Part shown: in pieces, positions 46,768 to 62,455 of the stretch
Numbering within the stretch: the first letter of the stretch is position 1
Layout: each line of letters opens with the position of its first letter
Assembly (NCBI GenBank): GCA_030267215.1
Contig: JAJDJP010000001.1
Location: forward strand, 62,001 to 126,000
Origin: Ruminococcaceae bacterium OttesenSCG-928-A16
GTDB lineage: Bacteria; Bacillota; Clostridia; Oscillospirales; Ruminococcaceae
Reading direction: 5' to 3'
DNA length: 64,000 bases
Notes under the pieces: model-generated
Told to the model about the DNA's origin: nothing
Databases searched by the model: none
The model's input: the letters and a program-made list of their open reading frames with translations, nothing else
Translations under genes and position numbers: made by a program

Positions 46768-49700
46768 ATGAAGCAAAACAAAAAGAGCCTAAAACGTGCC
46801 TTGGTACTGCTATTGGTAGCGGTGCTATCTCTCTCTCTTTTGCCATCGGCGTTTGCGGCAGGCGAAGCCATGAACGAGAGCAGGCAGGCGGCTAGCTTGG
46901 TGGCAAGCCTGCCCGCGCAAGAAACTGGCGAGGAGCCTAGCGGCCAGCAGCCGCCGGCCAGCGAAAGCTTGCCAGTGCAACAAGTGGATATTTTTGAGCC
47001 ACGGCACCAGCCCCTGGGTATGGAGCCCCAGCTGGAAGATGCCTTTGCCGTGCAGCAAACGGCTGCCCTTGATGAAGTGCCCGAGGGTATGCTTGCCCCA
47101 TTGGCAGCGGCCGAGCCAACCTTCCAGTGGGAGATACCGGATAATGGCGGCTATGCCAACGACCTTACCACCGCAGAATTACAAACCGATAACTGGACGG
47201 GCATACTGTTTTTTAGCTACCCGGTGCCCGAAGGCGGGGACGATGTTGCACCCGGGGCCTTGGTGGCTACCATTGATATGGGCGCTGCCTTTACCGGCGA
47301 GTTAAGCCTGCAATCAGGCGGATTGTTCGAGATTTCTTCCCTTGGCAGTGGCAAATGGCAGCTTACCAACACAGCGGCCTTAACCACTGGCTTTAATGCC
47401 GATGTTGGCATTAAAGCTACGCTGGATGGAAAAATACGCGCCCTGGCTACCGACACAAACGGTATTATTTCGTTTGCCGATATTAAGATGAATTATACCG
47501 ACCCGCTAACCGAAGCCCCGCAAAGCTTTGCCCTAACCCTAAATGTGGTTACCAAAAAAGATAACTTTACAATTAGCAAAACAGCCCAGCCAATCGATCT
47601 TACGGCTAATATTGGCCTTGCCAATGCCGCCGATTTGCTAACCTATAATTTTGTAGATTATCGCATTGTTGTGGGGCAAAACCTATATACCCGCGAAATA
47701 TATGAGTATGTTTTGTCCGATGCTGTTCCCGCTATTGGGGCAGGGCAGGGGGCTATTGTTTCGGTTGCGCGTGGCACCACCTTTTTGTTTAGCGAGGTGA
47801 ATGGAACCACAGCCGAGGGTACCGCAGCGTTTGGTGCCGGCAACAACCTTGCCACCGGCAACTTGGTTATTAATGCACCCAGTGGTAGCGGCCTTGGCAA
47901 CAGCGTTACCTATTCGGTGGTGGTAAAATACCCCAAAGCCACCAACAGTGTTACCAACATAGCCAATATCAATGGCCGGTACGACGGTAACGCCAGTAGC
48001 GAGCTGCTGGGTACCTCGCAGGTAACCATAGATACTGGCGACGGCCGTTTTGCGGTAGATGGCAGCAAGGCTTACAGCATTAGCAAAGCATTGCGCAGTA
48101 ACTTCCAAACCTACATGGGGCGCAGCGGTGTGGTGCCCAGCAACAAGTTTGGGCAAAAACAGGGCGAAATAAACGAGCAGATTGTTGCCGAAATTGTGGC
48201 CCGCAAAACCTTACCCGGAGACCCCGCAAACGGAACCAATGCTGCGGTAGACATGATTATATACGACGACGTGCTTACCTTTAACAACGGTGCTTCTACC
48301 ACAGGCCGCCTGTTAACCGGGGCCGAGCTGTATATCGAAAATATTAACGTTACCGCGTTTGGCGGTGCTACCGGCGTGCAAAGTGCCGATGTATATTTAA
48401 AGCAAAATGCGGCCGACGCTTGGCCTGCTGCACCTACCTATACCCTAACTGTACCGGCCGATAGTACCAATATTAGCCAAGCTGTGCCAGCGGATAGCCG
48501 GTATGGCTATGCCAAAATTGTGTATAAAAATGTGCACGATACCGGCAGTGCTACCATTAAGCTAACCTATTCGGCTTCAGAGGCTTTTACCGATGAAGAG
48601 CGCACCGCCGCCGAAAGCTTAATTGCAAACTATGCGGCGCTTTCGGTAATGGTGGCCGGCACAAACACCAATGCGCTGCCAGCAGTGCCCGATGAACAAG
48701 CCTACCCCAACACCACCATTAGCAAAGGGGTAACCAGGTATCTGGGTGTGCTAGAGGTGTTGGATTCTTTGCAGCACAAGCTGGACAATGGGGCAACACC
48801 GGTGCTGCGTGCCCTTGGTGCGCTGCATTTTGCCACCTACCTTTCGTTCGATCATTACTACCTGTACCCCAACACCTATGCAACCTGGAGCCCTGAACTG
48901 GAGCGCTACGATTTTAATGCCCATATTGGTATGTTTATTAGCGGCGCGCAGGGCTCGCCCGTTAAAAATGTAACCTATGTAACCTACCTGCCCACCAACA
49001 TTTTTTTGAACCAAGACCAGATTTATGAGGGAAAAAGCATTGGCAGCTTTGATGCAAACGGCGCTGCCATTATTGAAAAATTAACCACCGAAACAGTGAT
49101 GGTGAACGGCGAGCCACGCCAAAAGGTTACGGTAAAATTGAAAGAGCTTGCTGGCAGTGGCTTTCAGGAGAGAAATGCCCGCATAACTTTAAGCTTTTAC
49201 ACCTACGATATCGAGCGGTATCAGCCGGGCACCTCGGTTCCATTTCCTAACAACTACACAGTAATTGGAGATTATAGCCACCTTTCACGTGGGTATATAT
49301 CGGGCAGCACTGCAGAATACCGTATTATGCAGGACAATGGCAAAAGTACCCCCGATGGTGCCAAGATGACCAACCAAGACAACGACACGGTGGATTGGGT
49401 TTATTTAACCGATTACCAAAGTATTGCCCTGCCGGCGGTGGCAAACATCACTTACTCTGGCGTAACCAAAGGCATACTAGAAGAAGATGGCAGCGTGGTG
49501 CGCAGCGCAGTGCGCAACGTTGGCAAAACATGGCAGTACCAGCTAAAGGTGGTTTCTAACAAGGGCAAGCTGCAAAATGTTGTGGTGTACGATGTTTTGC
49601 CCGAGATAGGCGATGCTTCGATGGGAACAAATACCGCCCGTAATAGCCAATATCAGGCGCAATTGCTGGATATTGATATTACCAATGCGGTAGAAAATGG

Positions 49701-50979
49701 GCATACACCGGTGGTGTACTACAGCACCGTGGCCCAGCCCGGCACAAACCTTACCAGCGGCGAGTGGAGCACCACCCCGCCCGAAAATGTAAGCGAGGTA
49801 CGCGCCCTGGCTTTCGATTTTGGGGAGAGCCTGTTTAACGGCAACAACCCAACCAACACCCCCGACGAAGCCAATATTATAATTACGGTACGCAGCGATG
49901 CCGACCCCTTGCTGGACCAAAAAATTTCATACAACAATGTTTACTCTACCTACGATATTATAAGAACCGGCGTAAACCAGGGTAACCCGGTGGCCGCCCC
50001 CAAACGCGACACCCTGCCTGTAGATGTGAAGCTGTTGGCCTCGAACGTGCTAATTGGCTCTACCTTGTTTGCCGATGTTGATGCCGATGGCATTATGGGC
50101 ACAGAAGAAGTGGGTATAGAAGGCCGGAAGGTATTTTTATACCAACTTAACCCCGAAACTGGTGAAAAAGATTTGGTAGACCAAGTGCTTACCGATGGCA
50201 ACGGAAACTACCTGTTTGCCGCCCCAAGCGATGGAACTTTTTATGTAGGTTTTGAAAAAACCGACAAAGAAAAATTTTCTCCCCGGCCAGAGACTCTACC
50301 GGTGGCCGCCGAGGGTGAGGAAGAGGTTGTATTTAGCAAAATAGACCCCGCAACCATAGAGGGTAACCTTGGGCTAACCAGCCCCGTTGTGGTAGATGTT
50401 AACGACTTTTTAGACCCCGGCCGCAAAATTTTGGATATGGATGCTGGCGTAAGCATTTGGCACAAGGTAATTTACGATGCCAATGGCGGTACTGGCGAGC
50501 AAATCGATAAGCAATCTCCCTATTTAGATGGCAGCACCGTAACCATACTGGGGCAGGGCGGCATAACCCGCCCGGGCTATACCTTTAAAGGATGGAACCT
50601 GGCCCCCGATGGCAGTGGAACCATGTACCAAGCAGGGGATACCTTTGTAATTACCGAGGACACCACCCTGTACGCTATTTGGGTGCCGGAAGAAACGCCC
50701 CCGGTTAGCAGCAACCCAACGGTTTCAGAAGACCCCGCCAGCGAGCCTATTAGCGGAGTGCCCTCTACCAGTACCCCTGTTAGTGAAGTGCCGCCTAGCA
50801 GCACGCTTACCAGCCAAACACCTTCGGCCAGCGCACCGGCTGGTGGTGGCAACGGGCAAAGTGGCACCGCCGCAACCGGCGATGCCACCCCGCTGGTTTG
50901 GGTGCTTGCATTGTTTGCTTTAGCGGGTTGCGCAATTGTGGTTATTGTTGTGCGCCGCAAAAATGCCAGCAATAAATAA
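46768..50979 (+). CDS. Large surface protein (1403 aa) with SdrD/Cna-B-like and InlB-like repeat domains and C-terminal membrane anchor
   Basis: Signal peptide; IGSTLFADVDADGIMGTEEVGIEGRKVFLYQL; VIYDANGGTGEQ...RPGYTFKGWN; C-terminal TAATGD + TM + RRKNASNK. Confidence 0.88.
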   Translation: MKQNKKSLKRALVLLLVAVLSLSLLPSAFAAGEAMNESRQAASLVASLPAQETGEEPSGQQPPASESLPVQQVDIFEPRHQPLGMEPQLEDAFAVQQTAALDEVPEGMLAPLAAAEPTFQWEIPDNGGYANDLTTAELQTDNWTGILFFSYPVPEGGDDVAPGALVATIDMGAAFTGELSLQSGGLFEISSLGSGKWQLTNTAALTTGFNADVGIKATLDGKIRALATDTNGIISFADIKMNYTDPLTEAPQSFALTLNVVTKKDNFTISKTAQPIDLTANIGLANAADLLTYNFVDYRIVVGQNLYTREIYEYVLSDAVPAIGAGQGAIVSVARGTTFLFSEVNGTTAEGTAAFGAGNNLATGNLVINAPSGSGLGNSVTYSVVVKYPKATNSVTNIANINGRYDGNASSELLGTSQVTIDTGDGRFAVDGSKAYSISKALRSNFQTYMGRSGVVPSNKFGQKQGEINEQIVAEIVARKTLPGDPANGTNAAVDMIIYDDVLTFNNGASTTGRLLTGAELYIENINVTAFGGATGVQSADVYLKQNAADAWPAAPTYTLTVPADSTNISQAVPADSRYGYAKIVYKNVHDTGSATIKLTYSASEAFTDEERTAAESLIANYAALSVMVAGTNTNALPAVPDEQAYPNTTISKGVTRYLGVLEVLDSLQHKLDNGATPVLRALGALHFATYLSFDHYYLYPNTYATWSPELERYDFNAHIGMFISGAQGSPVKNVTYVTYLPTNIFLNQDQIYEGKSIGSFDANGAAIIEKLTTETVMVNGEPRQKVTVKLKELAGSGFQERNARITLSFYTYDIERYQPGTSVPFPNNYTVIGDYSHLSRGYISGSTAEYRIMQDNGKSTPDGAKMTNQDNDTVDWVYLTDYQSIALPAVANITYSGVTKGILEEDGSVVRSAVRNVGKTWQYQLKVVSNKGKLQNVVVYDVLPEIGDASMGTNTARNSQYQAQLLDIDITNAVENGHTPVVYYSTVAQPGTNLTSGEWSTTPPENVSEVRALAFDFGESLFNGNNPTNTPDEANIIITVRSDADPLLDQKISYNNVYSTYDIIRTGVNQGNPVAAPKRDTLPVDVKLLASNVLIGSTLFADVDADGIMGTEEVGIEGRKVFLYQLNPETGEKDLVDQVLTDGNGNYLFAAPSDGTFYVGFEKTDKEKFSPRPETLPVAAEGEEEVVFSKIDPATIEGNLGLTSPVVVDVNDFLDPGRKILDMDAGVSIWHKVIYDANGGTGEQIDKQSPYLDGSTVTILGQGGITRPGYTFKGWNLAPDGSGTMYQAGDTFVITEDTTLYAIWVPEETPPVSSNPTVSEDPASEPISGVPSTSTPVSEVPPSSTLTSQTPSASAPAGGGNGQSGTAATGDATPLVWVLALFALAGCAIVVIVVRRKNASNK

Positions 50980-52430: not shown

Positions 52431-52769
52431 GTATAACCACCCTTCTCTTAATAAAAAGGAGCTTATTTTACGATAAATAGCTACTTTATTATACATTACC
52501 CACCTGCCAAAAACAACAAAAAGGGGCAACCCTTTAACAACAAATCAGTTTGCAATAACGCCAGCTTTAGCGGCAAAACAACACCATAAGGCTGTACCTT
52601 ATGGCAGAACAATAGCCAGTTTTGCTGACTTTTTGCCCTAAAAAAGGTATAGTAAAAATAAAATCACAAAAAAGTGGCGGATTTTTTGGGCTTGCTGTGC
52701 CTTATATAATAGAGGCCTGAAAACTCTTTTCCGTTTACGCAAATATAAAGTGATTCTGGGGGGAGTCTC

Positions 52770-54401
52770 ATGAAAGAGGAACAGGCAAAGTTATTGGTGC
52801 AAAAGGCCATGCAGGGAGACAACCAAGCTTTTGTAGCCCTGTGCGAAGCCAAAGGCAGCGAGATTTTGTATGTCTGCATAAAAATAATGCAAAACCAACA
52901 GGACGGAGAAGATGCCGCCCAGGAGGTTTTTATTCAGATGCAAAAATATATTTTGGGGTTGCAAAGTGCCGATGCATTTAATGTGTGGCTAAACCGCATT
53001 ATATTTCATGCTTGCCTAAACCTAAAACGCAAAACAAAGCGGGCCAAGGGGGAGCTACCATTGGAACACTATGTTGGTTTGTTGGAAGAAAATCGCGCAG
53101 AGTTTTTGCCCGAAAGTTATCTGGAAGATAAACAAAAGCAACAGCTTATTATGGAAAGTATAAACCGTCTTTCGCCAAAATACCGCAAGGTGGTTTTGCT
53201 GTACTATTTCGAGGGATTGAACCAGCAGGAAATTGCGCAAGCAATGGAAATTAGCGAAAATGCAGTGAGCCATGTTTTGCGCCGTGCCCGCAATATTATA
53301 AAAAAAGAGGTAGGTGCCCCCCAGCAAGATTTATTAGGCTTTACAGCGGGGCTTCCGGTAATTTCCAGGCTGCTTATGGATGAAGCAACACAACTGGCGC
53401 CCAACGCTACGGTGCAAAAAATAATTTTTGCCAGCGGCATAAAAAATGCCACTATTGGTACGGTGTCAACCGGTGGTGGTGCAGCGGCTGCAAGCCACCT
53501 TTTTGCACGGGTAGCCGGCATGTTGTTTTTGGGTGCCGGTGTACTTGTGGGAGGTACAATGCTTGTTACCACCCAAACAAAGCCCAACACCCCTGCTGCC
53601 AGTGTTGCAAGTATCCCCCAATACTTGCAGCCAGGCAGTAACAAGGGTTTGGATATAGAAGATGCTACCGAAAGCCAAGCGCCTGGCGGTAATTGGCAAC
53701 CGGGCAAAGCAGTGTCTTCAGGGGTCTCTTCGTTGCCACCTGCCGGGGCACCGGCAGGTGGCAGAGGGGACGCCACAAAGCAAAAAGATGGTTTTGTGGT
53801 TTCTTTTGGCGGCGGGGTTGTTTTTGTAAATGTTGATGGCCAAACCGTACAAAATAAAGGGCACTACACCGAAGGCTGTATGGTGCAATTGGTAGATGCA
53901 AACCAAACCGTGCTGGCACAAACAACAACAAATAGCCAAGGGAATTATATATTTGAAAACCTGGAACTGGACGCAGCAGGAGAATATACCCTGCAACTAA
54001 TTTTGCCCCAAGGCAAAGGCCTTGTGTTTGCCCCACAAATGGCGGGTGGCCAGCAGCAGGTGCTGTTACAACAAAATGCCACTGTTACCCCAAAGCCGTT
54101 TGCCATTACGGCAGGGGCGGGGCCAACCGTGGGCCTGCTATTATACAATGCGCAAAACCAGCGCAGCAATATTAACCCGGTTAGGGCCCAGGTTATAACA
54201 AAGGGCCCGGCACAAACCACTTATAGTTGGGAAATAGCCGACCGGAATGGACAGATTATTTTGCAAGGTGGCGAAGCGATAGGTGAAACGTTAGCCCAAA
54301 TGCAGGCCAGCGGGTATAGGGGGCTGTTCACCCTTACCGTAGCTGTAACCGATGACGCAGGAAACAGGGCGGGGGAATGGCAAACAATTTATATTAGGTA
54401 A
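52770..54401 (+). CDS. ECF-type sigma factor fused to TM helix and extracytoplasmic SdrD/Cna-B-like domains
   Basis: N-terminal sigma region 2 (DGEDAAQEVFIQMQ) and region 4 (LSPKYRKVVLLYYFEGLNQQEIAQAMEISENAVSHVLRRAR); TM VAGMLFLGAGVLVGGTMLV; C-terminal TTTNSQGNYIFENLELDAAGEYTLQL. Confidence 0.9.
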   Translation: MKEEQAKLLVQKAMQGDNQAFVALCEAKGSEILYVCIKIMQNQQDGEDAAQEVFIQMQKYILGLQSADAFNVWLNRIIFHACLNLKRKTKRAKGELPLEHYVGLLEENRAEFLPESYLEDKQKQQLIMESINRLSPKYRKVVLLYYFEGLNQQEIAQAMEISENAVSHVLRRARNIIKKEVGAPQQDLLGFTAGLPVISRLLMDEATQLAPNATVQKIIFASGIKNATIGTVSTGGGAAAASHLFARVAGMLFLGAGVLVGGTMLVTTQTKPNTPAASVASIPQYLQPGSNKGLDIEDATESQAPGGNWQPGKAVSSGVSSLPPAGAPAGGRGDATKQKDGFVVSFGGGVVFVNVDGQTVQNKGHYTEGCMVQLVDANQTVLAQTTTNSQGNYIFENLELDAAGEYTLQLILPQGKGLVFAPQMAGGQQQVLLQQNATVTPKPFAITAGAGPTVGLLLYNAQNQRSNINPVRAQVITKGPAQTTYSWEIADRNGQIILQGGEAIGETLAQMQASGYRGLFTLTVAVTDDAGNRAGEWQTIYIR

Positions 54402-54447: not shown

Positions 54448-57400
54448 ATGAGAAAAAGTAAGCATTCTATTGCCCAAAAATGGAAAGCGATGCTGTGTAG
54501 CCTGCTTGTTGTGGGGCTTATTGCCACAGCCATGCCGTTTGCAGCGCGTGCCCAGGGTGAGGAACCGGCAGAAATTTTGGCAACGCAGCAAAATAGCACA
54601 GCCCCGGGCGATGATTTAGGGATTGAAAATGACGAATTGCCCGAAAACGAAGTGGAAGTTATTGAAGAAGATATTGCAGCAGGCGAGCAAACGGCCGACG
54701 ATGCTGAAATAGAGGAACTTTTGGCAGAAAACCAAGAAGCCGAAAAACCAGAAAAGGTTGAGGAACCTGAAGACGAGCCCGAAGACGAGCCGGCTATGGT
54801 GGACGAGGAAACCGAAGAGGAAGATGCCCCGGCAAAGGCCCAGGCCGATGTGATAGGGGAAACCGAAGCCTTTCAAATGGCTTCGGCTTTTGGGCTGCAG
54901 GCGTTAGCGATGGATTTTGCAACCCTGCAACAGATGATTGATGATGCACCAGCCGGCGAGCAAACGGTTATCACCATCGATAATGAAATAGTGGTAGAAG
55001 ATACGCTGCTGATATTGGGAAAAAATATTTTGCTAAATGGTACCGGTACGCTGCAGCTGGATCCCAGTATTTCTGATGGATTTTCGGTGGAAGAAAACGG
55101 TGCCCTTACGGTTACCGGCATCACGCTGCAAGGGCAGGAGTATTCGCCTTTTGGTATATACGTAGAAGGTACCTTTGAAATTGGAGCGGATGCCGTACTG
55201 CGGGAAACCACCACATATGTTAATGAAAATGCAATTTTAAACCTGAGTGGCGGTTTAATAACCGGTAATACAGATGTGTCGGTTATTAAAAACCATGGTA
55301 CATTTACCATGGCCTCTGGTAGTATAAACGATAATATAGTGGGCAATAAGCTGATAGAAAACAGCGGTGTTTTTACCATGGCCGGCGGTAGCATACAGGG
55401 CAATACAGTGGATGATGCGCTGATAGAAAATGATGGTGTATTTACTATGGAAGGCGGCAGTATTCACAATAACCATCTAACGTATGAATCTGACGATGCC
55501 AGTGTTATCTCTAACCAAAAAACATTTGTTATGCAAGGGGATGCTGTAATTTCTGGCAACGAAATGCGAGCAGTTACCAGCGAGGGCCTGGCCAGTAATA
55601 TCATGCAGGGAAAAGCGGCTATAACAAACAACACCAGCACGGGCAATGGCGGCGCTTTTTATTTATATTATGGTGCTAGCCTTACCATGCAGGGCAATGC
55701 CCGCATAGAGGGGAATAAAGCCGTAAGTGGCGGCGGTATTTATGCCGAACAAAAAAGTGGCACAACCAAAACCGCAGTTACCCTGGCAGAAAATGCCCTT
55801 GTAACGGGTAACCAGGCACAAAGTAGTGGTGGCGGCGTTTATATTGGCCAGTTTGGTTTTTTTACCATGCAGCAAAATGCTGCTATTACTGGCAATACCG
55901 CCTTTAGCAAGGACCCCGACAGCAGTGGCGATGAAGAAGAGGAAGAACCCCCCGAAGAGGACGAGCGTACCCTGGAAGAAATAGCCTACGACTATAAAAG
56001 CATTGCCTATGGTGGCGGCGGCCTGTTTATAATGGATGGCGGCAACCTTTTGGGCGGAGAAATTAGTGGCAATATTGCCCAAAATGGCAATGGCGGCGGT
56101 ATATATGCAGCCGTAAGCAACCAACAAACCGATGATTTTGTGATTGATGGTACCAATATTAATAACAACACCGCCACCTATGCCGGTGGTGGCATGTTCT
56201 CCGAGGGAAGCTCGATTTACAACTCAGATCGCCATCAATTGTTAAAATCTGTTATTTCGGGTAATATGGCAGAGTATGGTGGGGGGCTTTTTTCCTCCAG
56301 CTTGCATATAGAAGATGTAGAAGCGGCAAATGCCGACGAGTTTGTGCCAAGCGGCCAAATAGAAGCCCCACTGGTAACGATTAGCACAAACAAGGCGCTT
56401 GTAGCTGGCGGCGGTATTTATGTAGCCGGAGACATCGAGAACTCAGATCGCTCGGTGCTGGTGGAAGGCAATGAGGCAGCTTATGGTGGCGGCATTTATG
56501 TGCCCACCTATAGCGGGCGCTGGCATTCTGTGTGCCACCCAACCAACGCCGGGCACGACCAGCTAATAGAATTAGCTGAAAATGCAAATGCCCCAATGCC
56601 CTATATCCTTACCATAACCAACAACAAGGCAAGCCAAAGTGGCGGGGGTATCTATAATAATGGCGAAATAGGTATATCCCTTATACACGTGGAAGTGAGC
56701 AAAAACACTGCCGCTGATGGCGGCGGCATGTACCTTGCCGAAGCAGGAAAATGGGCATGGCAAGACGGCGGTGAGGATGAAGGCTACCCCTATAGCTGTA
56801 AGGCAGAGTTTACCGGCAACACCGCAACACAAAACGGTGGCGGCATATATTATGCCAGCCAAGAATGGAACATGTTTAACAGCTACTATAACCTGGTTAC
56901 CTACGAAAGCCAAGAGGGCAGTGAAGAAGATATAACGGCTTATTTAGAAAAACCGATGTCTATTTATGGCAACGTGGCACAGGGCGATGGTGGCGGCATG
57001 TACGTTGCAAGTGGCAGTGCGCTACTGCTAGGCGTAAATTTTGGCCAAAATAACGCACAGGGCAACGGTGGCGGCATGTATGTTGCAACCGGTGCCGAAG
57101 CGCTGATTCGTGCGCTGGGTAGCGAGGAAGATATTGTTGTTTTAGAAACACCGGAGCCCACTACTTTTACCGGCAATACAGCCCAGAACGGTGGTGCTAT
57201 TTACAACAGCGGTACCGTAAAATTGCACGGAGCGGTTATGGACAATAACACTGCAAGCCTGCTTGGCCAAGGTGCCTGCCATAACGGCGAACTGTTTGTT
57301 ATTTGCAGCGATGCAGAATTTGGCGCCGAGAGTGAAAACAGCATCTTTTTGTACCCAGATAAATTTTTAACCATCGAGCCGGACGGCCTGAGTGGAATTT

Positions 57401-58308
57401 ATTCTATTGAGGGCTTTTTACCAGGAGATGCGTATGAAGGCCGGGTAGTTGCCGTGCGTTCTTCCGGCAACAGCGCCGAAAGTGAAGTAGAGGCGTTTTC
57501 GTACCTGCCAAAAACCCACCCGGTAACCTTTGCCAGCCCCAATATGGTGGTGCTGGGCGAAGGAGCAACAGCAACCCTTACCTATGTAACCATTAATGGC
57601 GCGGCCCAAAGTAATGCGCCAGCAGATGAAAATGCACCGGAACCCCAAGCATATGTTATGGGTACCGAGGTTAGCATAACCAGCCATATACCGGTGTGTG
57701 TAGGGTGGGAGTTTACCGAATGGAATACCGATCCCGATGGAAATGGCGATGCATATAGTGGTGGGCACCTGCTTACTATTACGCAAGATACTATCCTGTA
57801 TGCACAATACATCCATACGCCTTATTGGGTAACCTTTAACTATATGGGGGCAGCGCCCTCAAGCTTGGAAAAATACTATTACAACGACCTGCTAAACCAG
57901 CCCAATGGCATAGAGTATGAAGGGTATACTTTTGGCGGCTGGCAAAAAGAGGATGGAAGCTTTTGGGATTTTGAAAAAGATACCATGCCAACAGAGGATA
58001 TTGAATTGTTTGCCTATTGGGTGGCAAACCCTGCTTCGTCAAGCAGCCAGGATGTATCCTCCAATGTACCACCTGTTTCCTCTTCTTCTCAACCAGAAGC
58101 GGTAAGCTCGTCTTTGCCGGTATCTTCTCAGGGCGAACAACCTGCCAGCACAAGCACGCCGCAGGGTAATAGTACAGTAGCAAACACGGCAGGCACGCCA
58201 CTAACAGGCGATGACTTTAGCATTGTACTGGCAATAAGCTTGCTGCTAATTGGGTTTGCAACCACCTGCGTAACCCTTATAATTTATAGAAGAAGAAGCA
58301 AACAGTAA
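54448..58308 (+). CDS. Large surface adhesin with beta-helix (GGGIY) repeats, InlB-like domain and C-terminal TPLTGD-TM anchor
   Basis: RBS GGGAGG; signal peptide; many SGGGIY/NGGGMY repeats; VTFNYMGAAPSSLEKYYYNDLLNQPNGIEYEGYTFGGWQ; TPLTGDDFSIVLAISLLLIGF...RRRSKQ. Confidence 0.9.
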   Translation: MRKSKHSIAQKWKAMLCSLLVVGLIATAMPFAARAQGEEPAEILATQQNSTAPGDDLGIENDELPENEVEVIEEDIAAGEQTADDAEIEELLAENQEAEKPEKVEEPEDEPEDEPAMVDEETEEEDAPAKAQADVIGETEAFQMASAFGLQALAMDFATLQQMIDDAPAGEQTVITIDNEIVVEDTLLILGKNILLNGTGTLQLDPSISDGFSVEENGALTVTGITLQGQEYSPFGIYVEGTFEIGADAVLRETTTYVNENAILNLSGGLITGNTDVSVIKNHGTFTMASGSINDNIVGNKLIENSGVFTMAGGSIQGNTVDDALIENDGVFTMEGGSIHNNHLTYESDDASVISNQKTFVMQGDAVISGNEMRAVTSEGLASNIMQGKAAITNNTSTGNGGAFYLYYGASLTMQGNARIEGNKAVSGGGIYAEQKSGTTKTAVTLAENALVTGNQAQSSGGGVYIGQFGFFTMQQNAAITGNTAFSKDPDSSGDEEEEEPPEEDERTLEEIAYDYKSIAYGGGGLFIMDGGNLLGGEISGNIAQNGNGGGIYAAVSNQQTDDFVIDGTNINNNTATYAGGGMFSEGSSIYNSDRHQLLKSVISGNMAEYGGGLFSSSLHIEDVEAANADEFVPSGQIEAPLVTISTNKALVAGGGIYVAGDIENSDRSVLVEGNEAAYGGGIYVPTYSGRWHSVCHPTNAGHDQLIELAENANAPMPYILTITNNKASQSGGGIYNNGEIGISLIHVEVSKNTAADGGGMYLAEAGKWAWQDGGEDEGYPYSCKAEFTGNTATQNGGGIYYASQEWNMFNSYYNLVTYESQEGSEEDITAYLEKPMSIYGNVAQGDGGGMYVASGSALLLGVNFGQNNAQGNGGGMYVATGAEALIRALGSEEDIVVLETPEPTTFTGNTAQNGGAIYNSGTVKLHGAVMDNNTASLLGQGACHNGELFVICSDAEFGAESENSIFLYPDKFLTIEPDGLSGIYSIEGFLPGDAYEGRVVAVRSSGNSAESEVEAFSYLPKTHPVTFASPNMVVLGEGATATLTYVTINGAAQSNAPADENAPEPQAYVMGTEVSITSHIPVCVGWEFTEWNTDPDGNGDAYSGGHLLTITQDTILYAQYIHTPYWVTFNYMGAAPSSLEKYYYNDLLNQPNGIEYEGYTFGGWQKEDGSFWDFEKDTMPTEDIELFAYWVANPASSSSQDVSSNVPPVSSSSQPEAVSSSLPVSSQGEQPASTSTPQGNSTVANTAGTPLTGDDFSIVLAISLLLIGFATTCVTLIIYRRRSKQ

Positions 58309-58357: not shown

Positions 58358-58396
58358 AAACCCAGCCCCGGCTTTTTGGCCGAGGCTGGGTTTTGC
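58358..58396 (+). terminator. Intrinsic terminator
   Basis: AAACCCAGCC..CGGC/GCCG..GGCTGGGTTTT. Confidence 0.8.
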
Positions 58397-58677
58397 TACG
58401 ATGATACGATTGGAGATAGATAGCTTTTTCAATAAATTTAATTAAAATCAATGGTTTGCATGCGGTTGAAAGCCAATAGTTCCAACATTTTTGCAAAACG
58501 ATAACTTTTAAGTAGCGTGAACTTAAAATAACCACCCTTTTGTGTGGGGCAATTGTGTATTAAATCTGATATAATTTTTAAAAGACTATATTGCGGTACA
58601 ACACAAACCACCTTACAAAAGTACATTTTAAACGGTACAAGCTAAACACCATGCGGTGTGTAACAGAGGGTGACCTT

Positions 58678-60348
58678 ATGATGTTGCGAAACTGGAAGAA
58701 AGTGAAATGGCTTGCAGTGGCTTTTTTGGTGTTGCTGGCCGTCTCCATCTATCGGCAAATTTGCATACAGTTTTTTCCAAACGACATGGTGCGCCCGGTT
58801 ATTGTTTACTTTGTGTACCTGTTGTTGCTTTCGGGGTGGAGTGCCTCTATCCGTAACCGCATTACCCACGGCAGTATGCGAATGTTTTTGCTGGTAACCC
58901 AAATTTTAATGCTGCTGGGCATCACCATTCGGTTTTTGCACGATGCCATGGTGCCGCACTACGATTTTTTTATGCAGCACTATGCGCCCCTGATGCGTTC
59001 TAGCGGGTATTTGGTTGGTATGCCTATCTTTATTCTTCCCCTGTTTGGCTTGTACGCAGCTTTTTGCCTGGGCCGTTCAGAAGAATACCGTTTTAACAGG
59101 GGCTGGTATGCCTTGCTTATCCCGGCCGTAATACTTGTTTTTTTGCTGCAAACCAACGAATACCACCACCTTATTTTTGGTGCGTTTGAGGAAGATATTT
59201 TGTCTTACCGCCCAACCGTGGGCATGGTGGTTATTGTGCTGTGGGCGCTGGCCCTGTATTTGGCCCGCATGTTTGTTATTTACCGCAGAAGCCGGGAGGT
59301 AAAGGACTTTCCCCGCTTGCGCTTTGCACCCCTGCTTTTAATTGTTTCTATGCTGGCGCTGTGCATTTACTACTTTTCCATTTCGTTTGTTGTTAGTTTT
59401 GAGATAATAGAGTTTAATGTGCTTGTTTATTTTTGCGAGATTTTGATTTGGGAAAGCTGCATTTATATGGGAATGGTGCCGGTGAACACAAATTATGAAG
59501 AGGTGTTTGACCGCTCTACAGTGGCCATGCAACTGGTGGATAGCAATGGAATATCCCACATGAAAAGTACCAATGCGCCAGCGTTATCCAACGAAATATT
59601 TGTGCAGCTAAAAAAACAATCCCCCATCCTTACAAATGAGGGAAAAGAACTGCATTTGCACGCCATTAATGGCGGCTATGCCATTTGGCAAAACGATATG
59701 TCGCAAACGCTTGCGGTAATTGAAGAGCTGCGAAAGAGCGTGGAACGCTTAGAGTATGAGGGGGTTATCCTGCGCAATGAATTGCGGATTCAATCGGACA
59801 ATGCGACGGTGAAAGAGCAAAACCGCCTTTATAACCAATTAACAGAGGAAATACAAGGGCAGCTTACGCTGCTGCAAAATTTGCTAAACAAGCGGGAATG
59901 GACGGAGGACAAAACTACACTGTTTAAAAAGGTTTGCTTGGTTGCCACCTACATTAAAAGAAGGTGTAATTTGCGGCTTGTAGAGCAGGCCGAAGGTATA
60001 ATATCTAACGAAGAGCTAAAACTTTGCTACGATGAAATGAGTGCCTGCTTGCGGCAACTGGATATAGGGGCGGGTGCAGTTTGGCACAACGCGAACCCGC
60101 TTGCCCCCGAATTGGCAATTTTTTCGTTAGATTTATTTGAGCTTTTGCTGGAATACGATGACTTTAATTTGTATACCATCCATATTTCTTTCGAATCCGA
60201 GACCAAATTCATGTTATATATCCATTCCAAAAGCGATGCTTCTGCCCAAATTCCCACCGGCCAACTAAAAGCGCTTAACAAAGAAAATTATCTGGTAAAA
60301 TGGCAGCCAGTGGAAAAGGGTGCGCGGGTTGTGGTGCAAATGGTATAG
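58678..60348 (+). CDS. Histidine-kinase-like membrane protein with multi-TM N-terminus; apparently lacks catalytic motifs
   Basis: Multi-TM N-terminal half resembling the histidine kinase 7TM region; coiled-coil then C-terminal ATPase-like fold with no recognizable H-, N- or G-box. Confidence 0.7.
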   Translation: MMLRNWKKVKWLAVAFLVLLAVSIYRQICIQFFPNDMVRPVIVYFVYLLLLSGWSASIRNRITHGSMRMFLLVTQILMLLGITIRFLHDAMVPHYDFFMQHYAPLMRSSGYLVGMPIFILPLFGLYAAFCLGRSEEYRFNRGWYALLIPAVILVFLLQTNEYHHLIFGAFEEDILSYRPTVGMVVIVLWALALYLARMFVIYRRSREVKDFPRLRFAPLLLIVSMLALCIYYFSISFVVSFEIIEFNVLVYFCEILIWESCIYMGMVPVNTNYEEVFDRSTVAMQLVDSNGISHMKSTNAPALSNEIFVQLKKQSPILTNEGKELHLHAINGGYAIWQNDMSQTLAVIEELRKSVERLEYEGVILRNELRIQSDNATVKEQNRLYNQLTEEIQGQLTLLQNLLNKREWTEDKTTLFKKVCLVATYIKRRCNLRLVEQAEGIISNEELKLCYDEMSACLRQLDIGAGAVWHNANPLAPELAIFSLDLFELLLEYDDFNLYTIHISFESETKFMLYIHSKSDASAQIPTGQLKALNKENYLVKWQPVEKGARVVVQMV

Positions 60349-60500
60349 GGCATGCCTTGCTATAGCAATAAACTTCAAAGCTGGCCGGCTTTGTGTGTGC
60401 AATAGGTTTGCGTACGCACCCAAAAGGGTGGCGTTTACGCCGTTGCTAGTTGCTTTGTTTAACAATAAAAGCATTAAAAACAGGGAAGAGGTGATGGGTT

Positions 60501-61814
60501 TTGAATCTTTCTGCCAGCTTTGTTTGGGCGGGTGCGGTGCAATTGTTTTTACTGATATTTGCCGTGTATAGCCTTACCTTTTGGCAGATAAGCCGGAAAA
60601 TCTCCCCGACGGTAATCGACCTTTTTTTGCTGGGTGTGCAGGTGGCAAATCTGGTTGTTCTGCTGCAATATATGTCCGGCACCAGCCAACTTATTTTTTC
60701 CAGGAAAGAAAACTATGGGTTCCTTTTGGGTATTCAGGCCCTCATTGCCCTGCTTGTGCTTTTCCGCTTTTTCTTTTTAATTTTTAGGCGCCGCACCCAA
60801 CACCAAAAAGTGCTGTCGCCCACGTCGGTTCGCGAAGCGATTGATTACCTGCCCGGTGGTATTTGTTTTGCCGCTGTAAATGGCCGGCCAATTTTAACCA
60901 ACCATAAAATGAACGAATTGGTTTTTAGGCTTACCGGCCACACCATTATGAATGCCGAAACCACCTGGAAAGAACTCAATATCTTAAAAAATGCCAATGG
61001 ATATACCAAGCTGGAAAACCCTTGGCTGAACCAAGAGCATTTGGGGCAGGCTTCCGATGATTCTATTTATTTTTCTCATGCCGGCGGCAGTATTTGGCGG
61101 TTTCGTAAGGAAGAGTTGACCGAGCAAACGCCACACTACATTCAGCTGGATGTTATGGAGATAACCGAGCTGTACCATTACAGCAAAGAATTGTACGATA
61201 ACAACCGGCGGCTTGCACAGCAGTATGCACGCCAGCAAAATCTTCTTGCCAACATTGTAAAAATAAACAACGACAAAGAGATTTTGTCAATGAAGATGAG
61301 AATTCATGATGACCTGGGGCGCAGCATTATAACCACCAAACAGTATTTGAACGATCAAACACTTTCAGAGAACACCCCTTATTTAGCAGAAATTTGGAAA
61401 CACACCATTCGAGGCCTGGAGGATTTTTCACAGATGTCTCCCCAAGAGGATATTTCGCCCGAAATTGAGCTACGAAAAGCCGCCGAAATGATTGGTTGCC
61501 AAATTCATTTTGCGGGCCAGCGCCCGACGGGCCGCAAGGCGACACTTTTGCTGTATGCAACTGTGCGAGAGGCCCTAACCAATGCGGTAAGGCATGCTAA
61601 CGCAAACCAGCTGTATGTTACCCTTCGGCACAAAAACAATAGCTACCACGCTACCATTAAAGACAATGGAACCATGCCGGTGGCACAGGTGCAAGAGGGC
61701 AATGGGCTTGGTAACCTGCGAAGAAGGCTGGAGCAGGAAGGGGCCACCCTTTGGGTGCAGCATGGGCAGGGGGTTTCGTTGGTGGTAGAGCTTCCGGCAG
61801 ATGAGCTATTTTAG
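60501..61814 (+). CDS. Sensor histidine kinase (NarX/DesK-like, HisKA_3-type)
   Basis: MKMRIHDDLGRSIITTKQYL phospho-acceptor motif; VREALTNAVRHANANQLYV N-box; GNGLGNLRRRLEQEGATL G-box; TTG start. Confidence 0.88.
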   Translation: MNLSASFVWAGAVQLFLLIFAVYSLTFWQISRKISPTVIDLFLLGVQVANLVVLLQYMSGTSQLIFSRKENYGFLLGIQALIALLVLFRFFFLIFRRRTQHQKVLSPTSVREAIDYLPGGICFAAVNGRPILTNHKMNELVFRLTGHTIMNAETTWKELNILKNANGYTKLENPWLNQEHLGQASDDSIYFSHAGGSIWRFRKEELTEQTPHYIQLDVMEITELYHYSKELYDNNRRLAQQYARQQNLLANIVKINNDKEILSMKMRIHDDLGRSIITTKQYLNDQTLSENTPYLAEIWKHTIRGLEDFSQMSPQEDISPEIELRKAAEMIGCQIHFAGQRPTGRKATLLLYATVREALTNAVRHANANQLYVTLRHKNNSYHATIKDNGTMPVAQVQEGNGLGNLRRRLEQEGATLWVQHGQGVSLVVELPADELF

Positions 61815-61831
61815 AAGGAGGAAAAGAGCGA

Positions 61832-62455
61832 ATGGTGAATGTTCTACTGGTAGAGGATTCGAAAATAACCCGAGATATGGTGGAAAGATACATTAATATG
61901 TCGCAAAATTATGTGCTTACAACCACGCTGGAAAATGCGGCCAATGCAGAAATTGTGTGCATGAAAGGCAAAATAGACCTTGTTTTAATGGACGTTTGCA
62001 CAGCAGACGATGAATCGGGGTTGGAAGCTGCTGCCAAAATAAAAAAACATTATCCAACCATCAAGGTTATTGCCATGACTTCGATGCCGGAACACTCTTT
62101 TATACAAAAAGCAAAGGAGGCCGGTTGCGAAAGTTTTTGGTATAAAGAATATGGCAATATGGAACTGATTGATGTGATGAACCGCACCATGCAGGGGGAA
62201 AGTGTTTACCCGGATAAAACGCCTGCCATTGCAATAGGCAATGTAAATAGTGGCGAAATAACCGAGCAGGAAATGATTGTGTTGCGCCAACTTTGCCTTG
62301 GCTATAAATACGAGGAAATTGCTGAAAACCTCTCGATAACCCTTAACACGGTAAAATTTCATGCCAAAAACCTGCTGGCAAAAACCGGGTACCGCAGCAC
62401 ACTGCAACTGGTGGTAGATGTGGTAAGTAAGCGGCTGGTGCTGCCCAAGTTTTAA
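61832..62455 (+). CDS. NarL/LuxR-type response regulator
   Basis: VNVLLVEDSKITRDMVERYI receiver, DLVLMDVCTADD, C-terminal LSITLNTVKFHAKNLLAKTGYRS HTH. Confidence 0.93.
   Translation: MVNVLLVEDSKITRDMVERYINMSQNYVLTTTLENAANAEIVCMKGKIDLVLMDVCTADDESGLEAAAKIKKHYPTIKVIAMTSMPEHSFIQKAKEAGCESFWYKEYGNMELIDVMNRTMQGESVYPDKTPAIAIGNVNSGEITEQEMIVLRQLCLGYKYEEIAENLSITLNTVKFHAKNLLAKTGYRSTLQLVVDVVSKRLVLPKF

Follow-up and report, generated by a model that had tools for sequence, protein, structure and literature searches.

A predicted membrane-tethered ECF sigma factor with an SdrD_B-type ectodomain and its paralogs preceding surface-protein genes in Clostridia

Analysis of a 64,000-nucleotide window from Ruminococcaceae bacterium OttesenSCG-928-A16 (contig JAJDJP010000001.1, positions 62,001 to 126,000) reveals a gene (window positions 52770-54401, + strand) for a membrane-tethered ECF sigma factor, in which the sigma domain, the predicted membrane anchor and a sensor- or adhesin-type ectodomain are parts of one 543-aa polypeptide. 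ECF sigma factors are normally soluble and held by a separate membrane anti-sigma factor. We propose, with moderate confidence, that the protein is a one-piece transducer, whose anchored sigma domain would be released by cleavage in response to the outer sensor and would then drive an autoregulated operon containing its own gene and a surface-protein gene. This proposal is built on the architecture, the paralogy, the single clade, the operon order and the shared promoter-like elements, all read from the sequence. A broader and more tentative scenario, which we hold to be possible rather than probable, is that an ancient fusion gave rise to a clostridial clade of one-protein ECFs without the classical anti-sigma domain, a large one that was amplified here to some 14 switches of surface proteins. 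Each switch would have a separate ectodomain and, in part, a separate -35 specificity, and through these tethered sensors of its surface the cell would choose the displayed adhesin.

The gene is one open frame with an ATG start and no internal stops. Its product begins with sigma region 2 (residues 1-92, 52770-53045), matched by Sigma70_r2 (residues 31-91, E 3e-6), and sigma region 4 (residues 115-181, 53112-53312), matched by Sigma70_r4_2 (residues 125-174, E 9e-15) and containing the recognition helix AVSHVLRRAR; both Pfam matches are above the cut-off. The TIGR02937 sigma70-ECF model gives a score of 76.2 against a cut-off of 42.9, and regions 2 and 4 are the only sigma regions present, as is typical of the ECF (group 4) members. 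They are followed by a juxtamembrane linker of 60 aa (residues 184-243, 53319-53498), a single predicted transmembrane helix (about residues 244-266, 53499-53567), a disordered spacer rich in Pro, Gly, Ser and Ala (residues 267-340, 53568-53789), an SdrD_B domain (residues 348-430, 53811-54059; E 3.3e-9, 37.4 bits against a gathering score of 29.7) and a second beta domain (about residues 454-543, 54129-54398), in which the Pfam matches to the Ig-like families Big_13/Big_3_2 (residues 456-535) are weak and below the cut-off. Pfam detects nothing between residues 183 and 345, including zinc-finger or anti-sigma domains, and cysteines occur only at positions 25, 36, 82 and 370. The neighbors of the gene are a surface protein and unrelated enzymes, with no separate anti-sigma gene adjoining it among the window frames searched with Pfam. 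The original prediction, which had described one 543-aa frame with sigma regions 2 and 4, a linker, one hydrophobic helix and a Pro/Gly/Ser spacer, is thus borne out, and HMM searches identify both halves above the cut-offs. Its label "Cna-B/SdrD-like" holds for the SdrD_B part, while Cna-B finds no support by name in this protein, and the second Ig-like segment that it listed is present as a weaker beta domain with a subthreshold match.

The transmembrane segment was assigned from hydropathy only, where a single strong hydrophobic stretch (~244-266, Kyte-Doolittle 19-residue mean 2.08) agrees with the one membrane span claimed originally. An AlphaFold2 model, calculated from 14 sequences with the paralogs of the same genome left out, is confident for both sigma regions and for the first beta domain (pLDDT about 70-96); it shows a helix of low confidence at 238-254, leaves the spacer disordered (255-338), and models the linker poorly (pLDDT around or below 50). 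In the PDB, Foldseek matches the sigma part best to SigW/RsiW and AlgU/MucA, and the ectodomain best to SdrD B1-B2 and UafA. In the 47 tethered relatives described below, Lys and Arg are more numerous before the transmembrane segment in 27, after it in only 6, and equal in 14, and this positive-inside bias favors the location of the sigma domain inside the cell.

The original prediction treated this protein singly, but it turns out to be one of about 14 long tethered members in its own genome (2.17 Mb in 95 contigs, 78% complete) and part of a broad clostridial clade. The order of sigma domain, linker and hydrophobic segment is retained in the paralogs at identities of about 22-38%, which also conserve region 4, W73 and the region 2 motif DGEDAAQEVF. 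In an alignment of 12 of the members, identity to the 543-aa protein is 22-36%. Two further ECFs of this genome are of the ordinary soluble type, and each is accompanied by a separate gene, overlapping or adjacent, for an anti-sigma-like protein with a single transmembrane segment; therefore fusion is not the way in which the assembly renders every ECF. In the paralog C89 (L021:8613-10391) an in-frame TAA after the transmembrane segment parts the sigma domain and anchor from the ectodomain, which may reflect decay, a sequencing error or a real truncated form. A stretch of 48 bases at the gene's 3' end, where both contigs stop, is identical in the paralogs L022 (C67) and L024 (C65), possibly owing to recombination or to a repeated downstream sequence.

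Four incomplete congeneric genomes contain about 6, 1, 1 and 0 tethered relatives, and such a sharp variation in copy number makes the 14 genes look like an expansion specific to this lineage. A search that covered 299 genomes from the family and 243 from the class turned up many long sigma frames. When a protein was counted as tethered if a transmembrane segment occurs within 170 residues after region 4, the fetched sequences comprised 47 distinct tethered ECFs from many genera of Oscillospiraceae/Ruminococcaceae and other Clostridia; close relatives by name are Ruminococcaceae bacterium OttesenSCG-928-D13 and -I18 and Oscillospiraceae AS06rmzACSIP_408. When labels are mapped on a tree of 94 sigma domains, that of the tethered ECFs requires 2 changes, compared with a mean of 31.6 for shuffled labels. 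Two sequences are exceptions, one whose transmembrane segment is weaker (1.56) and one truncated where its contig ends but with the linker present; if they are relabelled or left out, a single change suffices, and the tethered ECFs lie on one side of one branch. The simplest reading of this single change is that one old fusion founded the clade. The survey also disposes of the concern that a frameshift or an assembly error had joined two genes: nothing was found in favor of such an artifact, which we regard as hardly credible, given the one intact frame and the recurrence of this domain order in 47 distinct proteins whose assemblies are independent. Four members from other genera (L091, L092, L095 and L096) are frames of more than 1100 aa with sigma domain, transmembrane segment, ectodomain and further membrane helices, followed with a 4-nt overlap by a gene of conserved size (about 216 aa).

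Two parts of these proteins behave differently in the clade. The linker carries the pattern aPLPxLxxxLQxEA before the membrane throughout, is not a zinc finger, and is a candidate built-in inhibitory segment, which may play the role of an intramolecular anti-sigma factor. The ectodomains vary, and include BspA-type LRR, LRR_4 with Fn3-like parts, CAP and DUF5640/lipocalin-like domains, or none recognized. Since SdrD_B resembles the stalk domains of adhesins, and LRR and CAP in the relatives are also adhesin-type domains, one could argue that the ectodomain is mainly structural or adhesive, that processing is constitutive and regulation transcriptional, and that the fusion merely ties the level of the sigma factor to the capacity of the envelope. 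We find this rather improbable, because a sigma-linker-transmembrane core that is kept while the type of ectodomain changes is what would be expected of interchangeable input modules. The claim that a sensor- or adhesin-type ectodomain, anchor and sigma factor form one polypeptide is in any case supported by the domain matches, the model, the fused relatives and the tree.

The stop codon of the sigma gene is followed after 46 nt by the ATG (54448), preceded by a good ribosome site, of a gene (54448-58308, + strand) for a surface protein of about 1286 aa, which has a signal peptide, Chlam_PMP-type and List_Bact repeats and a sorting-like (LPXTG-like) C-terminus, PLTGD-TM-RRRSK. No terminator-like site was found between the two genes on the + strand, and a hairpin resembling an intrinsic terminator (58367-58390, + strand) closes the pair, so that they are probably co-transcribed. 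Next genes with a signal peptide follow all 11 readable paralogs of the genome, compared with 36 of 127 control co-directional neighbors, and products of at least 500 aa are encoded by the next gene in 7 of 10 cases versus 7 of 127 (e.g. 2439, 1834 and 2226 aa); the large proteins of these operons include some with List_Bact, SpaA, SdrD_B or DUF11 domains. In other genera the link between tethered sigma factor and surface protein is seen in some cases only. The genome has seven sortase matches. SdrD_B is also found in some of its surface proteins, which makes it an attractive idea that the regulator may sense its own partner. Elsewhere in the window, 46768-50979 encodes a 1403-aa surface protein with SdrD_B, a List_Bact repeat and a sorting-like ATGD-TM end, whose gene is not immediately preceded by a tethered sigma gene, and 58591-62455, right after the surface-protein operon, encodes two membrane kinase-like proteins and a LuxR-type response regulator.

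Upstream of the sigma gene we found a -35-like element, AAAAGTGGCGG (52670-52680, + strand), which recurs in three paralogs of the same recognition-helix class, and a -10-like element, GTGCCTTATATAATAG (52697-52712, + strand). An ECF-like -10 of the type GTCTATATTAnTAG precedes the start by 41-113 nt in 11 of the 14 tethered-sigma genes, the exceptions being C49, C23 and C11a, and similar elements precede relatives in other species. These sites were initially chosen by visual inspection. In leave-one-out scans, 7 of the 11 true upstream regions were matched or outscored by three or fewer of 163 controls. Being almost a palindrome, the motif could alternatively serve as an operator. The -35 region varies among the paralogs, with G[C/T]GGCG common to the window gene, C1:44262, C65 and C89. 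The helix V[S/E/D]H.LRRAR is confined, among 16 sequences compared, to these four proteins and C49, which has no visible -35 element and whose contig ends 121 nt upstream. Within the four-gene class a 13-nt -35 block is 81% identical as opposed to about 30% for the adjoining spacer, i.e. the spacer has diverged and the -35 element has not. Across 15 genes the similarity of recognition helices correlates with that of -35 elements (Mantel r 0.40, p 0.0008), a signal partly explained by shared ancestry, as the H-type helices form a subclade (SH-aLRT 94). A genome-wide search for GYGGCG promoters gave 11 matches against 6 for the reversed pattern; apart from the tethered-sigma promoters the matches are at about the control level, and one of them (C90) lies inside an ABC-transporter gene, so we do not claim a wider regulon. 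Our view that each factor drives the operon to which it belongs is based mainly on the promoter comparison and this pattern search, and is probable given the -35 element shared by the H-helix class. The promoter comparison also bears on the notion that the sigma domain has lost its function in transcription and plays another role. Nothing speaks for it directly, except that some paralogs may be decaying, as the TAA in C89 could indicate; with DGEDAAQEVF, W73 and region 4 conserved in the paralogs and region 4 covarying with the -35 elements, we consider it very unlikely.

The transducer that we favor would operate as follows. At rest the N-terminal sigma domain would be held in the cytoplasm by the single helix, with the anchor and the conserved linker withholding it from RNA polymerase, and the SdrD-B/Ig-like region outside would sense the state of the envelope or surface, the input being possibly a ligand, or the presence or folding of the partner surface protein. 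A signal would lead to cleavage, first outside and afterwards inside the membrane, and the freed sigma domain would bind the class-specific -35 (here G[C/T]GGCG) and the GTC(T/C)-type -10 before its own gene, switching on the sigma gene and the downstream surface-protein gene. With about 14 such switches of diverged -35 specificity, the surface proteins could be controlled more or less separately. The topology, the inhibition at rest, the signal, the proteolytic release and the autoregulation are the points that we infer. Release by proteolysis is likely, even though the site-2 protease (M50, PF02163) was not found in the 78%-complete assembly of the genome itself: all four congeneric genomes searched carry PF02163, so that its absence probably reflects incompleteness. 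If this absence were taken at face value, the sigma domain might instead act while anchored, a change or oligomerization of the ectodomain making the linker let go and RNA polymerase being recruited at the membrane, close to where surface proteins are exported; the exported products of the operon and the conserved linker motif, which could be a conformational switch, would fit such a scheme. We nevertheless judge it unlikely in view of the M50 proteases of the congeners and of IutY, the sole biochemically studied fused transmembrane ECF in the literature searched, which works by cleavage (PMC5411451).

The ~14 genes, nearly all of which precede a gene for a secreted surface protein, suggest that gut-type Clostridia possess self-contained switches leading from the outside of the cell to the gene, a one-gene layout for which a single Pseudomonas protein and a few groups of Actinobacteria are otherwise the main known examples. 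If so, many of these bacteria would control large surface proteins via one-gene transmembrane sigma factors, and the switches would offer a way to study when adhesin-like proteins are displayed by uncultured gut symbionts. The paralogs would also form a natural series for the joint divergence of sigma region 4 and -35 elements, with parallel circuits kept apart, and a compact set from which externally gated sigma factors could be drawn.

Among known systems, SigW/RsiW and SigV/RsiV share the sigma fold (according to Foldseek) and the outside-to-inside logic, but have a soluble sigma factor and the anti-sigma factor as a separate protein. The SigI/RsgI systems of cellulolytic clostridia also occur as several paralogs per genome, with differing extracellular domains, and control extracellular proteins; in contrast to the tethered factors, sigma and membrane anti-sigma are separate genes, and SigI is not a typical ECF. 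A zinc-finger-free clostridial clade with exchangeable ectodomains, amplified before surface-protein genes, was not described in the literature searched, although it may already be catalogued, e.g. as ECF262 (type from Ruminococcus albus), a group from a clostridial genus that appears in a list of ECFs bearing regulatory extensions (PMC8999054). Transmembrane ECFs made in one piece are not new in principle, since IutY and ECF48/52/53 were already known (PMC8999054, PMC5826349, PMC5411451), a correction to the original prediction. IutY (ECF243) of Pseudomonas putida is a sigma/anti-sigma hybrid cut by Prc and then RseP (PMC5411451, PMC8999054), and likewise has an ECF sigma factor, a single transmembrane segment and an extracytoplasmic domain joined in one chain. 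It is, however, a Gram-negative protein, whose periplasmic cell-surface-signalling anti-sigma domain reads an outer-membrane siderophore receptor; this domain and a TonB-dependent receptor partner are the hallmark of ECF243, in place of which the 543-aa protein has SdrD_B and Ig-like domains, and IutY has neither an adhesin-type domain nor a set of paralogs heading surface-protein operons. In the actinobacterial groups ECF48/52/53, for which cleavage has been proposed (PMC8999054, PMC5826349), the polypeptide likewise continues after a transmembrane helix (assigned by hydropathy in the 543-aa protein) into an extracytoplasmic domain. The ECF52 protein SCO4117 of Streptomyces coelicolor comprises the sigma domain, the transmembrane segment, a Pro-rich spacer and an extracellular carbohydrate-binding domain, and autoregulation has been proposed for it (PMC5826349). 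These groups differ from the 543-aa protein in possessing a zinc-finger (ZAS) anti-sigma domain between region 4 and the membrane, and ECF52 has a carbohydrate-binding module instead of SdrD_B and a single copy in S. coelicolor; they are restricted to Actinobacteria, whereas the tethered clade described here belongs to Clostridia.
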